From a virus: 29,878 bases of DNA. The notes beneath the pieces are model-generated. The model did no database searches. It was not told where the DNA came from and was given only the letters and a program-made list of their open reading frames with translations. This document shows, piece by piece, positions 12,495 through 24,446 of this stretch. Made by a program: the position numbers and the translations under genes. The first letter of the stretch is position 1. Each line of letters starts with the position of its first letter. The stretch spans positions 1-29,878 of the IMG/VR virus record IMGVR_UViG_3300035228_001669. One strand, written 5' to 3'.

Positions 12495-14015
12495 ATGAGT
12501 TTATCTGGTGGGGCAGTTCCCCCAAGTTTAGTTCCTTCTCAAAAAAGAATGACATTAAGAGATAATTATTTAACTTTTGATGGAGCTGGAGGGAGCTTTG
12601 CACAACAATATCTACCTGAGCTTTACGAAGCAGAAGTAGAAAGATACGGAAACCGAACAATTGGTGGTTTCTTGAGAATGGTAGGCGCTGAAATGCCTAT
12701 GACATCTGATCAAGTAATTTGGTCTGAACAAAATAGATTACACATTGCTTATGATACCGCAGTTGGAGCTAACGCTGCTAACGGTAACGCTAATGCTACT
12801 ATAACTATTGATCTAGCCGGAACAAGCACTACTAATGCTGCTGTAAGAGTTGGTCAAACAGTTTTATTATCTGATGCTGCTACTGGTTTAGTTACTGCAA
12901 AAGGTTTAGTACAATCTTTAGGTGATGCTACTGTAAATACTGTTGCCTATACTAACAACGTTCTTAAAATTGCTGTTTACGGTGATGTAGGAGCTACTCC
13001 TTTACCATCTGCGTTAGTAGGAGCTGTTAAGCTTTTTGTATATGGTTCTGATTTTGGAAAAGGTACTATAGGTATGGAAGGTTCTATTGAGCCATCTTTT
13101 ACTCAATACCAAAACTCTCCAATAATCATAAAAGATAACTTCCAAATCAACGGATCTGACGCTGCTCAAATTGGCTGGGTTGAAGTTGCTACTGAAGACG
13201 GAACATCTGGTTATTTATGGTATTTAAAATCTGAGTCTGAAACAAGATTAAGATTTGAAGATTACCTAGAAATGGCAATGGTTGAAGGTAAGTTTATGAA
13301 TCCTGCTAACACAACTGCTGCTAACTTAGTAGATTATGATTTTGGTGGACCTGGTGCTACACCTGCTGGAGGGCAAGTTGTAAACGGTACTGAAGGTTTA
13401 TTTGCTGCTATCGAAGATAGAGGTAATATATATTCTGGATTTGCTGGTGCTGCTGCTCCTGGTTCAGGTGCAATTGCTGACTTCGATGAGATCTTAAAAA
13501 ATCTAGACAAGCAAGGAGCTATTGAAGAAAACATGTTATTCTTATCAAGATCTACGGCTCTTGATTTTGACGATATGATTGCTGCTCAAGCTGGTGGAGG
13601 TTTTGCTTCTACCGCTGCTGCTTCTTACGGTTTATTTGATAATGATGGAGATATGGCATTAAATTTTGGATTTTCAGGTTTTAGAAGAGGTTCTTATGAC
13701 TTCTACAAAACTGATTGGAAATACTTAAATGATGCTTCTACTAGAGGATTATCTAATGAGATTGATGGTGTAATGGTTCCTGCTGGAACAACTACAGTAT
13801 ACGATCAAATGTTAGGATCTAATATTAGACGTCCATTCTTACATGTAAGATATAGAGCTTCTGAAACTGAAGATCGAAGAATGAAGTCTTGGATTACAGG
13901 TTCTGTAGGCGGTGCTTACACTGACACTTTAGATGCTATGACTGTAAGTTTCTTATCTGAAAGATGTTTAGTAACTCAAGCTGCTAATAACTTCGTGTTG
14001 TTCAAAGGAGCTTAA
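12495..14015 (+). CDS. Major capsid protein, HK97 fold, crAss-like type
   Basis: This 506-residue shell protein has LTFDGAGGSFAQQYLPELYE at 26-45 and the signature NSPIIIKDNFQINGSDAAQI then GWVEV at 207-231, followed by SGYLWYLKSESETRLRFEDY at 238-257 and LEMAMVEGK. The same order (MxxGDHxxVNGSDxAQIGWVEV, GYLWYLK) is what I recall from crAss-like capsid proteins. Residues 95-185 are a Thr/Ala-rich beta segment (ANATITIDLAGTSTT, VRVGQTVLLSD) that looks like an insertion and could be a surface domain. The C-terminus (ETEDRRMKSWITGSVGG then FLSERCLVTQAANNFVLFKG) is well ordered. No N-terminal cleavage domain is evident. Codons such as GCT, TTC and AAC are favoured more than in neighbours, as expected for abundant expression. 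No Shine-Dalgarno sequence precedes the ATG. Confidence 0.93.
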   Translation: MSLSGGAVPPSLVPSQKRMTLRDNYLTFDGAGGSFAQQYLPELYEAEVERYGNRTIGGFLRMVGAEMPMTSDQVIWSEQNRLHIAYDTAVGANAANGNANATITIDLAGTSTTNAAVRVGQTVLLSDAATGLVTAKGLVQSLGDATVNTVAYTNNVLKIAVYGDVGATPLPSALVGAVKLFVYGSDFGKGTIGMEGSIEPSFTQYQNSPIIIKDNFQINGSDAAQIGWVEVATEDGTSGYLWYLKSESETRLRFEDYLEMAMVEGKFMNPANTTAANLVDYDFGGPGATPAGGQVVNGTEGLFAAIEDRGNIYSGFAGAAAPGSGAIADFDEILKNLDKQGAIEENMLFLSRSTALDFDDMIAAQAGGGFASTAAASYGLFDNDGDMALNFGFSGFRRGSYDFYKTDWKYLNDASTRGLSNEIDGVMVPAGTTTVYDQMLGSNIRRPFLHVRYRASETEDRRMKSWITGSVGGAYTDTLDAMTVSFLSERCLVTQAANNFVLFKGA

Positions 14016-14046: not shown

Positions 14047-14433
14047 ATGAGTTATTTAAAATTAAAAAAAGCAGATGGAGATGTTGATTTAATTCCAGCT
14101 GATGGAATTATTCACGTAACTGGCACAGCTGGTGTGGATACAACTTCTAGACCAACTGTTAAAATTGCATATAACACTGTGGCTTTTGGAGCAACTGGTG
14201 CTTCTGAGTACTTAGAACTAAATGTTCTAGTTGGTGGGCTATTCGCTCAACCAGCCTCTGGAGCTGCTGATTTATTGCGAAAAGCAATTAACGATGCTGT
14301 TATAAAAGCTGCTTCACAAATGGAGCCAGTTGAAGTTGTGTTTTCTAATACTATTGGAGCTAGTACAGCTACTGCCGCTGATGGTGGTGTAGTACACTCT
14401 GTGGCTATTGGAGAAGCTACTGCATCTGTTTAA
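14047..14433 (+). CDS. Small capsid-associated protein candidate
   Basis: This 128-residue, beta-rich protein follows the capsid gene by 31 bases and is the last gene before a strong terminator, so it is made from the same message as the shell protein. It starts MSYLKLKKADGDVDLIPADG, continues with alternating beta strands (RPTVKIAYNTVAFG, EYLELNVLVGG), one helix (ADLLRKAINDAVIKAASQM) and a final strand block (PVEVVFSNTIGAS, VHSVAIGEATASV). I recall small proteins of this type (opening with Y-KLKKA-G-DLIP) directly downstream of capsid genes in marine phages. A decoration or cement protein is plausible. It is Ala/Thr/Gly-rich like the capsid protein and shares its codon use. Confidence 0.75.
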   Translation: MSYLKLKKADGDVDLIPADGIIHVTGTAGVDTTSRPTVKIAYNTVAFGATGASEYLELNVLVGGLFAQPASGAADLLRKAINDAVIKAASQMEPVEVVFSNTIGASTATAADGGVVHSVAIGEATASV

Positions 14434-15320: not shown

Positions 15321-16403
15321 ATGGCAATAAACGTAAACACGGTATATACAACGGTATTAAGTATATTAAACAAAGAGCAGCGGGGGTATTTAACTCCTGA
15401 TGAGTTTAATAAAATAGCTACTCAAGTACAGTTAGAGATATTTGAAAAGTTCTTTGAGGACTATAACCAGTATTTACGAATGCCTAAAACAGATGTTGAA
15501 TTTGCATCTAGAGTTGATCACATTTTACAAGAGTTTCAAGTGTTTGAAGAAACAGAAAATGCATCTGATCAAACAAGTAATGTTTATACTCAACCAACTG
15601 GATTACATAGATTTGGATCTGCTTCATGGAATAAAGGTACTAATTCACCGCCTATAGAAATTCTAAGCAATAGAGATTACAACGAATTAAAACTATCCCC
15701 ACTAACGCAACCAACAAATAATTTTCCTGTTGCTAAATATCAAAAAGATAAATTAACTGTATTTCCAAGTGAATTAGCCTCTGATAAATCAGATGTTACG
15801 TTTAACTATATTAGAAAACCTAAAGACCCTAAATGGGGTTTTACAGTAGGCTCGTTAGGTCAATACATATATGATCCAAATCCTCTAATAACTTTTACTG
15901 GTATTCTTAAAACAAATCAAGACTTATTTAACACAACTGTTGGAGTACAAAATGGTTTAGTAAACTGTGCAATTGCTAGTGGAAGTTCTACTATTCCAAA
16001 TACTGATATAACTTCTTTTGTAAACGTTGCACCAACGGGTGGTGCAGGAGCTGCTGCTGATTTTACTGTAGACATAGATCCTAACACCGGGAAAGGACCA
16101 CTTAAATCTTTTACTATAACAAGTGGAGGAACCGGATTTAATATAGGTGATCAAATAGCGCTAGGTGATGGTAATTCGTTTGCTGGTAGTTCTGCTGGCG
16201 TTACAGTTTTTACATTACAAGCATCTAACTTTGTACAAGTTGTTCCGTCTGCAGGATCTGTTGATTTTGAAATAAGTGATAGCCAACAAAACGAAGTCAT
16301 ATTAGAAATACTAAAATATGCAGGTGTTGTGATAAGAGATCCAAGCATAGTACAAGCCGCGTCGCAAGAACTTGCTCAAGAAGAAAATAATAATAAAAGA
16401 TAA
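15321..16403 (+). CDS. Head-tail connector / tail ring protein with inserted Gly-rich beta module
   Basis: The frame begins earlier at a GTG (15285), but that start would place the terminator inside the gene; the ATG at 15321 gives MAINVNTVYTTVLSILNK. The N-terminal region (1-75) has LNKEQRGYLTPDEFNKIATQ then VQLEIFEKFFEDYNQYLR, a pattern I associate with the adaptor or ring proteins of crAss-like phages and relatives. Residues 105-170 include PIEILSNRDYNELKLSPLTQ and a strand-rich FNYIRKPKDPKWGF. Residues about 209-303 look like an insertion: Gly/Ser/Thr-rich with FTITSGGTGFNIGDQIALGD. The frame returns to conserved-looking sequence (ISDSQQNEVILEILKYAGVV then IRDPSIVQAA) at the end. The product would form part of the collar between portal and nozzle. 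It is 360 residues long from this start. Confidence 0.78.
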   Translation: MAINVNTVYTTVLSILNKEQRGYLTPDEFNKIATQVQLEIFEKFFEDYNQYLRMPKTDVEFASRVDHILQEFQVFEETENASDQTSNVYTQPTGLHRFGSASWNKGTNSPPIEILSNRDYNELKLSPLTQPTNNFPVAKYQKDKLTVFPSELASDKSDVTFNYIRKPKDPKWGFTVGSLGQYIYDPNPLITFTGILKTNQDLFNTTVGVQNGLVNCAIASGSSTIPNTDITSFVNVAPTGGAGAAADFTVDIDPNTGKGPLKSFTITSGGTGFNIGDQIALGDGNSFAGSSAGVTVFTLQASNFVQVVPSAGSVDFEISDSQQNEVILEILKYAGVVIRDPSIVQAASQELAQEENNNKR

Positions 16404-16406
16404 TAA

Positions 16407-17837
16407 ATGGGACTAATAGAACAAAACTCTTCTCAATACTACACAGGTAGTCAGTCGTATACGCCTGATGGCACTAACTCTAATGCCTTAACTTGGCCTA
16501 GTGTAATGACTCCACTTATATGGGATGCTACTGCAACCGCAACTTCTTTTAATAACTACAAAGTATTTATAGACAATGTAGAGCAATACCCAACTTTATC
16601 TCCATACTACATAACTCAATCACTTGCCACAACTATGGTAGGCGGTGTTCAAACTCAGATTTTAACTTTAAATTCACAACCACTTGGTGCAACAGCAACT
16701 CAAACAATAGCTGGAACTGGCTATAGTGGTACACCAGCAAATCCAGTTACATATACTTTAATTGGAGGTAATAATGACGCTGTTATAAGCGTTGTGGGTG
16801 CTAGTGGAACAGGTACTTTAACAAGCCCAGGCACAGGATACTCTGATGGAGTTAGTTATAATCTTCCATCTGGAATTGGCCAAACAGCCGCCGTATACAC
16901 TTACAATTCAGTTGCAACACCTATACCAACTAGCTCTATAATAACTGTAAAATTAACAAATCCATCTCTTTGGGATAATTATAAAAGCTATCAATATGTT
17001 AATTTAAAAGATATAGTAAATAACTTTATGGTTGCTTATGTAGGTGTTGATAAAATTATACCTAGAGTAAAAAGATCTGATGTTATATTCCATGCTAAAA
17101 GAGGTTTACAAGAGTTTAGTTATGATACTTTAAGAAGCGTTAAATCACAAGAATTAACTATACCACCTAGTCTTTCGCTAGTGTTACCACAAGACTACGT
17201 AAACTATGTTCAGTTATCATGGATAGATGGTTTAGGTGTTAAGCATGTGATATATCCAACTACTTTAACAAGTAATCCAAGTCAAGTACCACTTCAAGAC
17301 AACAGCGGATTGCCAATGCAAGATATTTATGGTAATCTCGCTCAATCTACTCAGTCTTTAACTAATGACAGATGGAGACACGCTGATCAAACAGCCTTAA
17401 ATGGTCAACTAGATGTTAATAATTTCACTGATGCTAATGTTTATAATTGGGGTTGGTGGAAAATGGCTTATGGACAAAGATTTGGTTTAGATCCAGAAGT
17501 TTCACAAAAAAATGGATGGTTCACTATAGATGAAAGAAGAGGAGTTCTAGCTTTTAGTAGTGACCTAGCTAATCAATTAATCATCTTAGAATACGTATCT
17601 GATGGTTTAGCATACGATGAAGATACTCATGTTCCTAAACTAGCTGAGGACGCTTTATATACGCATATAATGTATAGTATATTATCTACTAGAGCTAATT
17701 TTCCAGAGTACATCGTACAAAGATACAAAAAAGAAAGATCAGCTAAATTAAGAAATGCTAAAATAAGATTAAGTAATATTAAACTTGAAGAATTTACTCA
17801 AGTAATGAGAGGTAAATCTAAATGGATTAAACATTAA
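16407..17837 (+). CDS. Tail ring/connector protein with inserted Gly-rich beta module
   Basis: The 476-residue protein begins with a unique part (1-94) and then a Gly/Thr/Ser-rich segment at about 95-172 (TQTIAGTGYSGTP, TLTSPGTGYSDGVSYNLPSG). A conserved core begins near residue 200: LKDIVNNFMVAYVGVDKIIP, RVKRSDVIFHAKRGLQEFSY, TIPPSLSLVLPQDYVNYVQL, then SWIDGLGVKH. I associate this core with the T7 gp11-like and crAss-like ring proteins that follow the first adaptor. The C-terminal part has NWGWWKMAYGQRFGLDPEV, a WFTIDERRGVLAF strand pair and a final helix with EYIVQRYKKERSAKLRNAK. The gene starts 3 bases after the previous stop and ends 2 bases before the next, so the tail genes are co-translated. 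It probably contacts the nozzle. Confidence 0.8.
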   Translation: MGLIEQNSSQYYTGSQSYTPDGTNSNALTWPSVMTPLIWDATATATSFNNYKVFIDNVEQYPTLSPYYITQSLATTMVGGVQTQILTLNSQPLGATATQTIAGTGYSGTPANPVTYTLIGGNNDAVISVVGASGTGTLTSPGTGYSDGVSYNLPSGIGQTAAVYTYNSVATPIPTSSIITVKLTNPSLWDNYKSYQYVNLKDIVNNFMVAYVGVDKIIPRVKRSDVIFHAKRGLQEFSYDTLRSVKSQELTIPPSLSLVLPQDYVNYVQLSWIDGLGVKHVIYPTTLTSNPSQVPLQDNSGLPMQDIYGNLAQSTQSLTNDRWRHADQTALNGQLDVNNFTDANVYNWGWWKMAYGQRFGLDPEVSQKNGWFTIDERRGVLAFSSDLANQLIILEYVSDGLAYDEDTHVPKLAEDALYTHIMYSILSTRANFPEYIVQRYKKERSAKLRNAKIRLSNIKLEEFTQVMRGKSKWIKH

Positions 17838-17839
17838 TA

Positions 17840-20800
17840 ATGGCAGAAGTAAGGAATACTTTTATAAAGTCTAAAATGAATAAAGACCTTGATGCAAGAA
17901 TATTGCCAGCAGGGGAATATAGAGACGCAGTAAACGTTACAGTTAGTACTTCAGAAGGTGCAGATGTAGGTGCTTTAGAAAACATATTAGGAAATAAACT
18001 TTTACCAAATTTCGGCATAAGCGGTAGCGATATTGGTGTTGAATTAATAGGTGTTAAAGAAGAACCTGGAAAAAACAGAGTATTCGCTTTTTTTACTAAT
18101 TATGTAGATGCTTCTAATGATAACTTAAGTAATAAAGCCCCTAAAAACGCTTATTGTTCTATAGTTGTTTATGATATAACAACCGGAAACCAAGTGTCTT
18201 TAGTTGCGGGTAGTTTTTTAAACCTGTCTAAAACACACCCTATATTTGGCATAAATATAATAGAAGACTTATTGTTTTGGACTGACAACAGGAATCAACC
18301 AAGACAAATAAACATAGAGTTAGCTACTGCAAATCCTTCAAATAATGCAAATCCTTACTACACTATAGAAGAAAATATTTCTGTTGCTAAGTATTATCCT
18401 TTTGAAACGCCTACTGTTTACAGTGAAGAAACTATAACAGTAAGTGTATCAACCAAAGCTACAGCTTGGGGTTCAGTTAGTACTCCTACTAATTATCCTC
18501 AAATGCTTTTTGAAAGTACTTGCACTATAACTAGCGGAACACCTACCATGAAATTACACCCTGGTTTAAAATTTGAATTAGTTTCAACGGTTGAAGATCC
18601 TAATTATCCAGATCCAGTTAATCCAAGTCTTAATTATCCTTACCAAAACGAAATTAAAAAATACTTATTTCAACCCTTTATTCAGAATAATCCATCATCT
18701 TCAAACATATCTGGCTTAGGCCATTCTGAACCTCTTTGGTTTGTAAACCCATGGAATAGTACTGATCAACCTAGCTACAATCCACCTAATCCATTAAAGT
18801 TCATAAGTAATATACCTTTTCATTACATAGACGGAAGTGGAGTACAACAGTTTTGGAATGGTACTGCTACTTTAAAACTAATTCAACAAGAGGCTGTAAG
18901 CGTTACTGAAAAATGGTTAAAACCTACTTATAGATTTGTTTTTACAGATTATGCAGAAGCGGATACAGTTACAAATCCTGATCACTTAACAAGTCAAGGA
19001 AAAGCAGGATTAACTAGTAACCATAATTTACCTGTGCCTTTCATGTGGCCTAACTCTGCTGCTCCAACAGATCAAGATGCAGAGGATTATCAAAAATCTA
19101 TAGGTTGTCGAGGGTTAAAATTAACTACAAACTCTGTAAATGCTTATGGAGTTGGCAATACTTCTAGTGATTATTACTACAGAAGGTATTTTATCAACTA
19201 TCTACAACCAGGCATGAAAATAAGTTGGCCTGGGATGTCAGAAGATGATGATGATTATATTATAGATCAAATACTCGCAAGTGATGGGCCAACTACAGGA
19301 GTTCCATCAGGTTCGGGAGATCCACTTAGTCATAACTCTTTAGTTATAACCGTTAGGAAAATTGATAAAAACGGAAAACCTGTTAAAGAGTGGACTTGGC
19401 CTGTATTTAACAATCTTATAAGTGGTTCTTTTGTTGATGGAGCAGCAGTTCCTTTATTGAGTTTTTCTTTTGAAAATCCTTATTATGAAGAAGAGTTTGG
19501 TGGAAATGAAACATTTTTTGAAGAAAAATTTTGTAGATTAGCATATAGATTTATATACGACAGTAATGAAACTTCTTTAATATCTCCTTTTACTCAATCA
19601 TTATTTAAACCAATGCAAGAAGGTTTTTATTTGTATAGCGACAATTATGCTGGTTTTCAAGATCTTGGAGATGTAGCTTTTGTAACAGCTGGAACACCAC
19701 CTGAAACTGACGCTAATAGAGTAGGTATAAGTACTAGTAATTATTTATATGAAAACTCTATTAATAAAATAAATGTAAACATACCTATGCCTGTTGTTAA
19801 TAACAACACGCTTCAAGTAGGTGAAATAAATAGTGTTTTAAAAATAAAACAAATAGATATAATATACGAAGATTCTGCATCAACAAACTTATTAGTTTTA
19901 AAAAGTATTTCAGTTGACGACCCATCTGTTGTAGGTAATAGTGATACTAGCTATACATATAAATGGGAGGGTGATAAACCTTTTAAAGTATTACCAACTT
20001 CAGAAGCTACAAGAACATCAGATAAAGTACCCATAAGAGCTTTGGGACAAGAGGTTTCAGGAAATAGAATTATATATGGTAACTTTGTTAATAGACATAC
20101 TTCCCCTGAATTTTTAGATTATAGTGTTGGTATTAGTGGAAAATATACGGTTCAACAGAAGTTTTCTGAAAAGTCTGGTGTAGAATACCCTAACCATACT
20201 TTAAAACAGAATAGAATATATCAAGTAGGGGTTGTGCTTTCAGATAAGTACGGTAGACAGTCTGATGTTATACTAGCTCCACCTATATTTTCTACAGACG
20301 TAAAAGACAATAGTATATTTAGTGGAGACACTTTCTTTTCCAGATATTTTAAAAGAAGTGAAGTTAGTGGGCTAGTCACTTCTAGCTCAAGTAATATAGT
20401 CAACTGGATAGGTAGTAGTTTAAAAATGTTGTGGAATTCCACTATACCTAAATCAATTCCTGGGCTACAAGGCTATCCAGGTTTATATACTTTATTAGGT
20501 AGTGTTAATAGTTTTAATACTTTTTCTTCAAACACTAATGCTGGTTATAAGACTTCAAAAGATGTTGCTACAACTAATGTGCTAGGCTCTGGGTCTGGGT
20601 TAACTGTTGATATAGTCGCAACCCCAATAACGACTGGCCCTGCTGGCGGGCAAATAACAAGTGTTAATATAAATAACTCAGGCATGGGTTATGAATTAGG
20701 TGATATTTTAACTATTGACGGTGGTACAACTTTAACTCAGCTAACTATAGCTGGAGTTAATGAAGCTAACGACTTGGGATGGTATAGTTTTAAAATTGTT

Positions 20801-22598: not shown

Positions 22599-24446
22599 AT
22601 GGGAGCGATATTAGAAATTAAATACTTTAACGCGTTTTGGACTAAAAAACTTAAAACAGGAATACCATATGTTGGTGATTCAAGCAGTGGAACAAATCCA
22701 GGCCCAGTTCAATTTGGCGATGCAGTACAAGGTTTAGGTAATCAAGGTTTAAATGGTACTACTGGAACATATTTTTACCAAGACTTTAGTAACATAGCAG
22801 CTGACACTTTGAGATATAATTATTATATAGAAGATTCTACTATAAGGGGCGGTTATGGAAATACTAGTGTTGACTATGGCGTAAGAGCTTATTTAGATGA
22901 AGAAAATCCTATTCAAGAAGTAAGGTTTAATTCTTTAATATATTCTGGTGTTTATAACTCTAGAACATCTGTTAATAATACTAATATTTTTTCTATAGCA
23001 GAAAACATTACTAGATCTTTAGATCCAGCAAGTGGAGCTATACAGAAGCTTTATGCTGAAGACACTAACTTAATTATATTTCAAGAAAATAAAGTTAACA
23101 GAGCTTTAATAGATAAAGATACAATATATACAACTGAGGGTGGTACAAGCACGTTGCCTCCAGGCGTTGTTATTGGTCAAATAGTTCCTTATTTAGGTGA
23201 ATTTGGTATAAGCCAAAATCCTGAGTCTTTTGCGGTATACGGCTTTCAAAAATATTTTTCAGATAAAGATAGAAGTACAATTTTAAGATTGTCTAGAGAC
23301 GGTATTACGCCAATAAGTAAATATGGTATGACTAGCTTTTTTAGAGATGAGCTAAAGAAAATAGATAATAATTTTAAAGATTATTATATTCTTGCTAGTA
23401 GGTCTAAAAACTCTGGTGGAACTTTTAAAGATATTAATATTACTACATCTAGTATACAAGCTTCAAATGGAGAGACAGGAAATATACAGATAGGTAGTGG
23501 ATTTCAATACTCAAGTAATGGAGTAAATTTCTTGCCAGATCCGACTGATCTTTATATAGTAGATATACAAAGCCCAGCAGTAGGTGTTCCTAACGATACT
23601 ACTATAACTTTAAATAAACCAGTTACTTTATATAATGAAACTAAATTTAGATTTACAACTCCTGATAGAGGTAGAATACAAGGTGGCTACGATGTTCACT
23701 CTTTAGATTATTTAGTTTCTTTACAACAAAACTCTGCTTTTGTAAGTAATAATGTTTCAACTTATCAAACACTAAACTTTAACGAAAGTATAAATGGTTG
23801 GACAAGTAGATTTTCATTTAAACCTACTAGAATATTTAGTGTAGAAAATACATTTTTTACTGTCAATATAAAAGATCTTTATATTCACTATGATGAAACA
23901 ACGGCTAACAATAGAGGTTTTTGGTATACACAACCTTATAATTCCTCTAGTGTAACTTTTATATTTAACAAAGAACCTTTAGCTAGTAAAAACTTTAATA
24001 CCGTAAGTTACGAAGGCGCTAGTGGTTGGTCTATAAATTCTTTTGATGGTGATTTTGAAGGTGAAGACTTTATGAAAACTATAAATAGTCAAAACTTATA
24101 TGAAAGTTTTCAAGATAAAACAGATGTAGTTTATAGTTATTTACAAGGTAGATATGAATCTTACGCACCTAATAACACTGGTCTTTTAGCTACACAACCC
24201 CCTTACGAGTATGCTGGCTTTAATAGAAAAGAAAATAAGTATGTTGCTGCTTTAGTACAAAAACAAACTGACACATCAGATACATCGACTTATCCGCCTA
24301 GACCAGGAGAAGTAATATTTGGTAATCAAATGAGTGGTATAAAAGGTTATTTTGCAACTGTTCAAATGTCAACAGACACAATTACACAACCTGGTGGTGA
24401 AAAAGAAATATTTTCTGTAGCATCAAATGTTATTAGAACATCTTAA
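22599..24446 (+). CDS. Second tail nozzle protein (beta-propeller part)
   Basis: The 615-residue protein starts with MGAILEIKYFNAFWTKKLK and a Gly-rich patch at 24-57. A block I associate with nozzle proteins follows: YYIEDSTIRGGYGNTSVDYG at 75-94, FNSLIYSGVYNSRTSVNNTN at 110-129, QKLYAEDTNLIIFQENKVN at 149-167 and VIGQIVPYLGEFGISQNPES then FAVYGFQKYF at 191-220. Next is SDKDRSTILRLSRDGITPIS then KYGMTSFFRDELKK. Such repeats (tyrosine, aspartate, kelch-like) fit a beta-propeller. The last 200 residues are beta-rich with SFKPTRIFSVENTFFTVN and QGRYESYAPNNTGLLATQPP. It is separated from the 1574-residue protein by 34 bases, whose N-terminal part lacks these motifs, so the two probably together do the work of one nozzle protein in other phages. 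The leader is A-rich, with no Shine-Dalgarno sequence. Confidence 0.82.
   Translation: MGAILEIKYFNAFWTKKLKTGIPYVGDSSSGTNPGPVQFGDAVQGLGNQGLNGTTGTYFYQDFSNIAADTLRYNYYIEDSTIRGGYGNTSVDYGVRAYLDEENPIQEVRFNSLIYSGVYNSRTSVNNTNIFSIAENITRSLDPASGAIQKLYAEDTNLIIFQENKVNRALIDKDTIYTTEGGTSTLPPGVVIGQIVPYLGEFGISQNPESFAVYGFQKYFSDKDRSTILRLSRDGITPISKYGMTSFFRDELKKIDNNFKDYYILASRSKNSGGTFKDINITTSSIQASNGETGNIQIGSGFQYSSNGVNFLPDPTDLYIVDIQSPAVGVPNDTTITLNKPVTLYNETKFRFTTPDRGRIQGGYDVHSLDYLVSLQQNSAFVSNNVSTYQTLNFNESINGWTSRFSFKPTRIFSVENTFFTVNIKDLYIHYDETTANNRGFWYTQPYNSSSVTFIFNKEPLASKNFNTVSYEGASGWSINSFDGDFEGEDFMKTINSQNLYESFQDKTDVVYSYLQGRYESYAPNNTGLLATQPPYEYAGFNRKENKYVAALVQKQTDTSDTSTYPPRPGEVIFGNQMSGIKGYFATVQMSTDTITQPGGEKEIFSVASNVIRTS

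Follow-up and report, generated by a model that had tools for sequence, protein, structure and literature searches.

Gene order of the locus and the proteins that carry the inserts

The window, by which we mean the whole stretch of DNA analysed, is a virus record of 29,878 bases from an uncultured marine crass-like phage whose cultured relatives include Maribacter phage Panino, the Flavobacterium elemo phages, and Cellulophaga phages such as phi38:1. Its genes run from the large terminase through the portal, the capsid protein, the connector, and a conserved structural protein to a muzzle that is spread over two genes. The capsid protein (12495-14015) is about 50 residues longer than the phrog profile, and its residues 198-262 give a sub-threshold match to CBM77 (E 0.12).

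P0001 (15321-16403, plus strand; 360 aa; phrog_14543) was modelled by AlphaFold with a mean pLDDT of 80.9, the region of the insert described below being lower (mostly 56-79). Comparison of the P0001 core with the phicrAss001 tail barrel (7qoj_E) by VIA-align gave a Z of 13.1 and an rmsd of 5.9 over 202 residues, well above unrelated structures, and the SU10_adaptor profile matched 40 of 116 P0001 homologues. The modelled fold, helices together with a beta-sandwich, places P0001 among the crass-type tail-barrel ring or connector proteins, and since the core matches this known ring, the P0001 insert can be read as an addition to it. In two relatives, an apparent second, paralogous connector gene lies just upstream of the usual one (L091:5412-6095 and L050:6377-7366).

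P0002 (16407-17837, plus strand; 476 aa; phrog_13977) is a conserved structural protein of the virion, encoded in the tail block. Searches by tblastn linked it to structural proteins of Maribacter, Flavobacterium, and Cellulophaga phages through residues 190-475 only; the homologues there are 286-290 aa long and lack the N-terminal 189 residues. From the shorter homologues, the model, and VIA-align, residues 1-189 (16407-16973, plus strand) appear to form an extra N-terminal beta domain, which bears the insert. The model of this domain has pLDDT values mostly of 60-89 over residues 13-186, and on its own, it resembles podovirus tail complex and T4-like baseplate chains (VIA-align Z 4.7-6.7), while the whole P0002 model gave no significant match to the PDB with Foldseek/VIA. 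Because the domain is missing from cultured relatives and resembles tail-complex chains, the insert is nested inside another addition. The conserved C-terminal half of P0002 is poorly modelled and not usable because its alignment is shallow.

P0003 (17840-22564, plus strand; 1574 aa; phrog_14478) and the gene that follows it (22599-24446, plus strand; C part of phrog_14478) are identified by their profile matches as the crassvirus muzzle, the second gene scoring 35 bits against a gathering score of 27 for the muzzle C-terminal domain (PF25729, crAss_MUZ_C). The muzzle is split in the window: the profile phrog_14478 (1474 aa) aligns with the beginning of P0003 and then with part of the protein encoded after it, whereas in an elemo phage the muzzle is a single protein of 1470 aa. 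A long segment of P0003, residues ~194-545 (18420-19475), is not common to more distant relatives; several relatives have, in the matching part of the muzzle, a copy of the module described below instead. A preliminary description of this DNA had named the three proteins connector, ring protein, and nozzle; the fold upholds the first name and the muzzle assignment the third, while the naming of P0002 as a ring protein was not confirmed.

Three adjacent tail genes carry inserts at fixed loop sites

The preliminary description reported a Gly/Thr-rich stretch in each of these proteins, interrupting otherwise conserved sequence. All three stretches are present where it had placed them, and we refined their boundaries against relatives, of which an IMG/VR scan with P0002 supplied the first 30. 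Alignment of the homologues revealed that each stretch is an insert at a fixed loop site: close relatives have clean empty sites that align on both sides and hold short linkers only.

The P0001 insert spans residues ~187-312 (15879-16256, plus strand), as judged from the alignment and the insert census, and its core, placed by hhalign, HMM, and motif coordinates, occupies residues 235-303 (16023-16229, plus strand) with the motifs GGAGA (16038-16064) and GGTGFNIGD (16125-16154). The empty site reads GQYVYEPT-NTGTGVIP-TTGSVNFEIS. In P0002, the insert covers residues 91-172 (16677-16922, plus strand; alignment and six predicted strands). The closest relatives L011, L012, and L013 have a short linker in place of these ~82 residues, and L011 is 92-93% identical to the window in DNA on both flanks of the empty site. 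The P0003 insert, delimited by alignment and hhalign, lies between the anchors YPGLY and GWYSFK (residues 883-977; 20486-20770, plus strand) and contains GSGSGLTVDI (20585-20614) and GMGYELGD (20681-20704); the empty site reads YPGLYDL-TNPLGWYS.

The three inserts belong to one module family

Comparison of the insert alignments by hhalign gave a score of 55.9 (probability 96.6) for P0001 with P0003, 46.3 (95.6) for P0002 with P0003, and 36.8 (88.9) for P0001 with P0002. Scores over the three pairs ranged from 36 to 58, and the highest score in the column-shuffle control (200 shuffles per direction, five directions completed) was 18.8. Each window copy also scored above its own shuffled sequences when compared with modules of other sites: 104 for P0001, 90 for P0002, and at least 97 for P0003, against maxima of 71, 80, and 79 in 300 self-shuffles. 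In other relatives, the P0003 site is taken by an unrelated cassette; this matched the module with a probability below 1, and hence the hhalign comparison is specific. The P0002 window copy is the weakest and most diverged; it drops from the iterated HMM and escaped a profile whose training set had no P0002 modules. The P0003 window copy was likewise missed in its own leave-one-gene-out profile test.

The profile-profile comparison that the preliminary description had proposed thus finds one module family, beyond what shuffles produce, and the three stretches are homologous inserts of that family. Could unrelated low-complexity loops have come to look alike by convergence? The stretches are rich in Gly, Thr, and Ser, and the P0002 copy is diverged, as convergence would allow; against it, neither shuffled profiles nor shuffled sequences reach the observed scores, the same muzzle site can hold a cassette without any such match, and long similarity extends across host proteins at both the protein and the DNA level (below). 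We regard convergence as extremely improbable.

The module is most likely a six-stranded beta-barrel

The model of the P0002 module has six strands over residues 92-170 with pLDDT values of 80-89. Among the solved barrels listed, none exceeded a Z of 3.5, with a weak match to the domain 3 barrels of EF-Tu/eIF2 (Z 3.2-3.5). From this model, the module is most likely a six-stranded beta-barrel of ~70-110 residues with two glycine loops, GxG(Y/F)xxGD and GxGxGL, and these two motifs are conserved across diverged copies. Scans of 16 modules against Pfam and NCBIfam found no family at cut-off, and neither database has a model for the module. Ig-like, Big, and BACON profiles were among those below cut-off, the best being Big_7 with an E of 0.11 for a single module. 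A MoeA_C match in one module (2.5e-4) was judged to be chance, and a PDB sequence search with the module profile returned only chance antibody matches with E of 0.13 or worse.

The module occurs at many sites, is gained and lost, and moves between genes of different viruses

With two more scans, the set grew to ~185 loci, of which some overlap. The iterated profile gave 187 domain matches, distributed over 171 proteins, and 143 modules remained once identical copies were removed. They occur in the connector, in P0002, at no fewer than two muzzle sites, in the second muzzle gene, and in the gene after the capsid gene. The preliminary description had drawn attention to three neighbouring tail genes, an arrangement that proved not to be special, since relatives have modules in five or more genes, at sites of seven or more classes, and among these genes are a head gene and the second muzzle gene. 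The latter carries the module in L002, L010, L015, and L030 and has none in the window. The gene after the capsid gene encodes module-bearing proteins of 206-218 aa in L013 (5369-6022), L022 (5285-5935), and L012 (5413-6030); in the window, it encodes a 128-aa protein without the module (14047-14433). The cultured relatives considered for this, Panino and elemo, carry no module.

At the connector site of P0001, the module is present in 52 of 140 genomes and absent from the other 88. Mapped on a tree of 125 genomes, this site shows a minimum of 16 changes of state and the P0002 site a minimum of six, counts that are approximate because the tree is a quick one, built from protein cores without inserts on a sample chosen by similarity to the window. 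The window's muzzle insert site was empty in 22 of 49 proteins (not deduplicated), held the module in nine, and held another insert in 18; among the latter, those of L040, L134, and L137 resemble modules that have diverged.

Other inserts were seen along the way. In other relatives, the muzzle loop that bears the P0003 insert holds a second, unrelated beta cassette of the SLDPNIAVGDII type. It was found in 17 proteins and at that site only (loci L010, L017, L023, L025, L028, L034, L044, L051, L061, and L133); the hhalign result given above led us to reject it as a form of the module. The P0002 inserts of L077, L094, and L097 were also considered as the same module, which was not supported; the muzzle cassette matched these, too, with a probability below 1. 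The connector has a second site, after residue 86 of P0001 homologues, with inserts of 72-92 residues in L050, L074, L077, L094, L097, L099, L102, L105, L107, L108, and L112, and only that of L050 is the same module.

The clearest case of transfer joins two unrelated host proteins. The connector insert of L048 and the muzzle insert of L152 share 59.5% amino acid identity over 111 columns (score 324; shuffles 90 at most) and 82% DNA identity over 95 bp, between flanks that are unrelated. Similarly, a P0002 module, that of L002, has its nearest counterpart in a muzzle module of L050. The nearest relative of a module lies at a different site for 23 of the 143, although a few site labels, such as that of L012, are approximate; for the other 120, it lies at the same site in another genome. 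With the same module in non-homologous host proteins and empty sites in relatives, this is a mobile inserted virion module, and its movement between genes occurs between viruses.

Three related inserts in three adjacent genes might suggest a recent duplication within this genome, from one tail gene into its neighbours. The window copies, however, score 46 and 64 with each other and 90-360 with modules in other viruses. As they are not mutual nearest relatives, they entered separately or long ago. Together with the predominance of same-site nearest relatives, this makes recent duplication highly improbable, and we rejected it. The earlier proposal that one small domain was copied therefore stands in that there is one family, mobile between genes, and falls in so far as it implied recent copying within the genome.

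The module resembles domain I of the T4 tail sheath protein

A tblastn search with the P0003 module reached virion proteins of cyanophages as well as tail sheath proteins of Rhizobium/Agrobacterium phages; searches with the window P0001 module and the L004 and L030 modules found no match in phages. In cyanophages S-RIM2, S-BM1, and S-E7, the same module (tblastn, HMM) is found in a large protein encoded just before the neck protein gp13, a long fibre-like or YadA-type protein in which it has not been named as a domain. The sheaths of Pootjesviridae carry the module with HMM E values of 1e-10 and 3e-9, and hhalign aligned sheath and module with a probability of 97.5 and a score of 59.8 over 43 columns (shuffled maximum 20.9).

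When this sheath was aligned with T4-like sheaths, the module fell on domain I of T4 gp18 (PF22639, Gp18_dom_I; residues 98-188), so that the Pootjesviridae copy connects the two at the sequence level. In T4, this domain is an outward-protruding insertion in the sheath protein and folds as a six-stranded barrel (PMC3004832). As is predicted for the module, it is a small beta-barrel within a virion protein, and like the module it has a GxxYxxGDxI hairpin and an SSGL motif. Domain I of ten T4-like phages matched the module profile with a probability of 93 and a score of 38.9 (shuffled maximum 15.7), the match spanning 21-25 columns only; the unrelated-cassette control gave a probability of 1.2. 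PF22639 is also the second most frequent family among the connector homologues, as a weak, sub-threshold match in 5 of 116. No module reached its gathering score of 27 bits: the L048 module came closest with 16.0, the P10VF sheath scored 15.1, and the window copies gave no match. We leave the module outside this family. The two differ in motif order, the GY-GD hairpin coming first in T4 and GxGL first in the marine module, and in behaviour: in T4-like phages, domain I belongs permanently to the sheath and was not seen here to hop between genes, in contrast to the mobile module. The module looks like a distant relative of domain I, and the sequence comparisons make a good, though not proven, case for common ancestry.

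Domain I binds the retracted long tail fibres, and the substitutions G106S, S175F, and A178V block this binding (PMC3004832). Numbered without Met1, G106 is the first Gly of the GSNY hairpin, and S175 and A178 lie in the SSSSGLAAV loop. All three fibre-retraction mutants therefore map to the two motifs that are conserved in the modules.

Discussion

Small beta domains inserted in phage virion proteins were already known, mainly with Ig-like folds. Ig-like virion domains, including that of T4 Hoc, are, like the module, beta domains added to virion surface proteins and exchanged between phages, and they are thought to adhere to carbohydrates (PMC10385173, PMC9230969); the module differs in its sequence motifs and, as noted, matches no such family at cut-off. 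The BACON repeats of crAssphage tail proteins are also tail-associated beta domains and owe part of their spread to the horizontal transfer of individual domains (PMC6949934), but they form tandem arrays in a tail-associated protein, and the module matches no BACON profile. phicrAss001 shares crass-type ring and muzzle proteins with the window, and the portions of its published account considered here describe length variation of the muzzle arising from insertions; they mention no single module that is common to ring, muzzle, and head proteins and moves from one to another (PMC10172136).

We hypothesize that the module is a mobile surface cassette in loops of virion proteins that probably acts as an outward, weak, multivalent docking or adhesion knob. 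As a small exchangeable surface domain of ~70-110 residues, it would insert into loops of unrelated virion proteins that fold and assemble without it, so that phages could gain, lose, and swap it by recombination across genes and viruses. Crassvirus rings are dodecamers and the muzzle is a hexamer; the module would project outward from the tail in many copies at once. It may then act much as T4 gp18 domain I docks the retracted fibres, with glycans of the cell surface, fibres of the phage itself, or adjoining parts of the virion as candidate partners. The preliminary description had suggested an exterior decoration, perhaps one that binds polysaccharide or interlocks the rings, and we consider the exterior position plausible because the same module occurs in contractile sheaths at the outward place of domain I. 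By that analogy, and by analogy with the Ig-like domains of phages (PMC10385173, PMC9230969), a docking or adhesion role is favoured, since domain I protrudes and the T4 mutants fall in the module's conserved motifs.

Placement inside the tail would give the inserts another task, the handling of DNA or of stored cargo proteins. The lumen has room for this, as the phicrAss001 tail barrel stores cargo proteins (PMC10172136). Against this, T4 domain I lies outside, and the other carriers of the module include head-gene products, fibre-like proteins, and tail sheaths, for all of which one would expect it on the outer side; a luminal role is, in our judgement, highly improbable. The modules could instead be structural cement that bridges neighbouring rings or subunits and stiffens the tail with no host contact. 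Their presence in successive tail proteins fits such a role, and added sheath beta domains have been proposed to cement tails (PMC9230969). Since domain I makes no inter-subunit contacts (PMC3004832), and close relatives lack one or another module at otherwise conserved sites, we think cementing unlikely. Much the same low probability attaches to ornaments that have no selected function and persist because the loops tolerate them: frequent gain and loss, and the use of the same muzzle loop by an unrelated cassette in other relatives, are what this would predict, but the conservation of both glycine motifs across diverged copies is not.

The docking or adhesion knob can tentatively be taken a step further. 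The T4 sheath knob and the exchangeable marine knobs of rings, muzzles, fibres, and head proteins might form one unnamed domain family, with the two loops as a common docking site that either holds fibres or grips the host. This wider reading is possible, and we hold it with clearly less confidence than the knob itself.

The present case is a module of a different kind, with clear empty sites and direct transfer between unrelated host proteins, which makes its gain, loss, and swapping countable. If the link to T4 domain I is true, the three published T4 mutants would mark the candidate binding site of the module, and the glycine-rich segments of marine phage proteins, a large class that is so far anonymous, would become open to tests of function.
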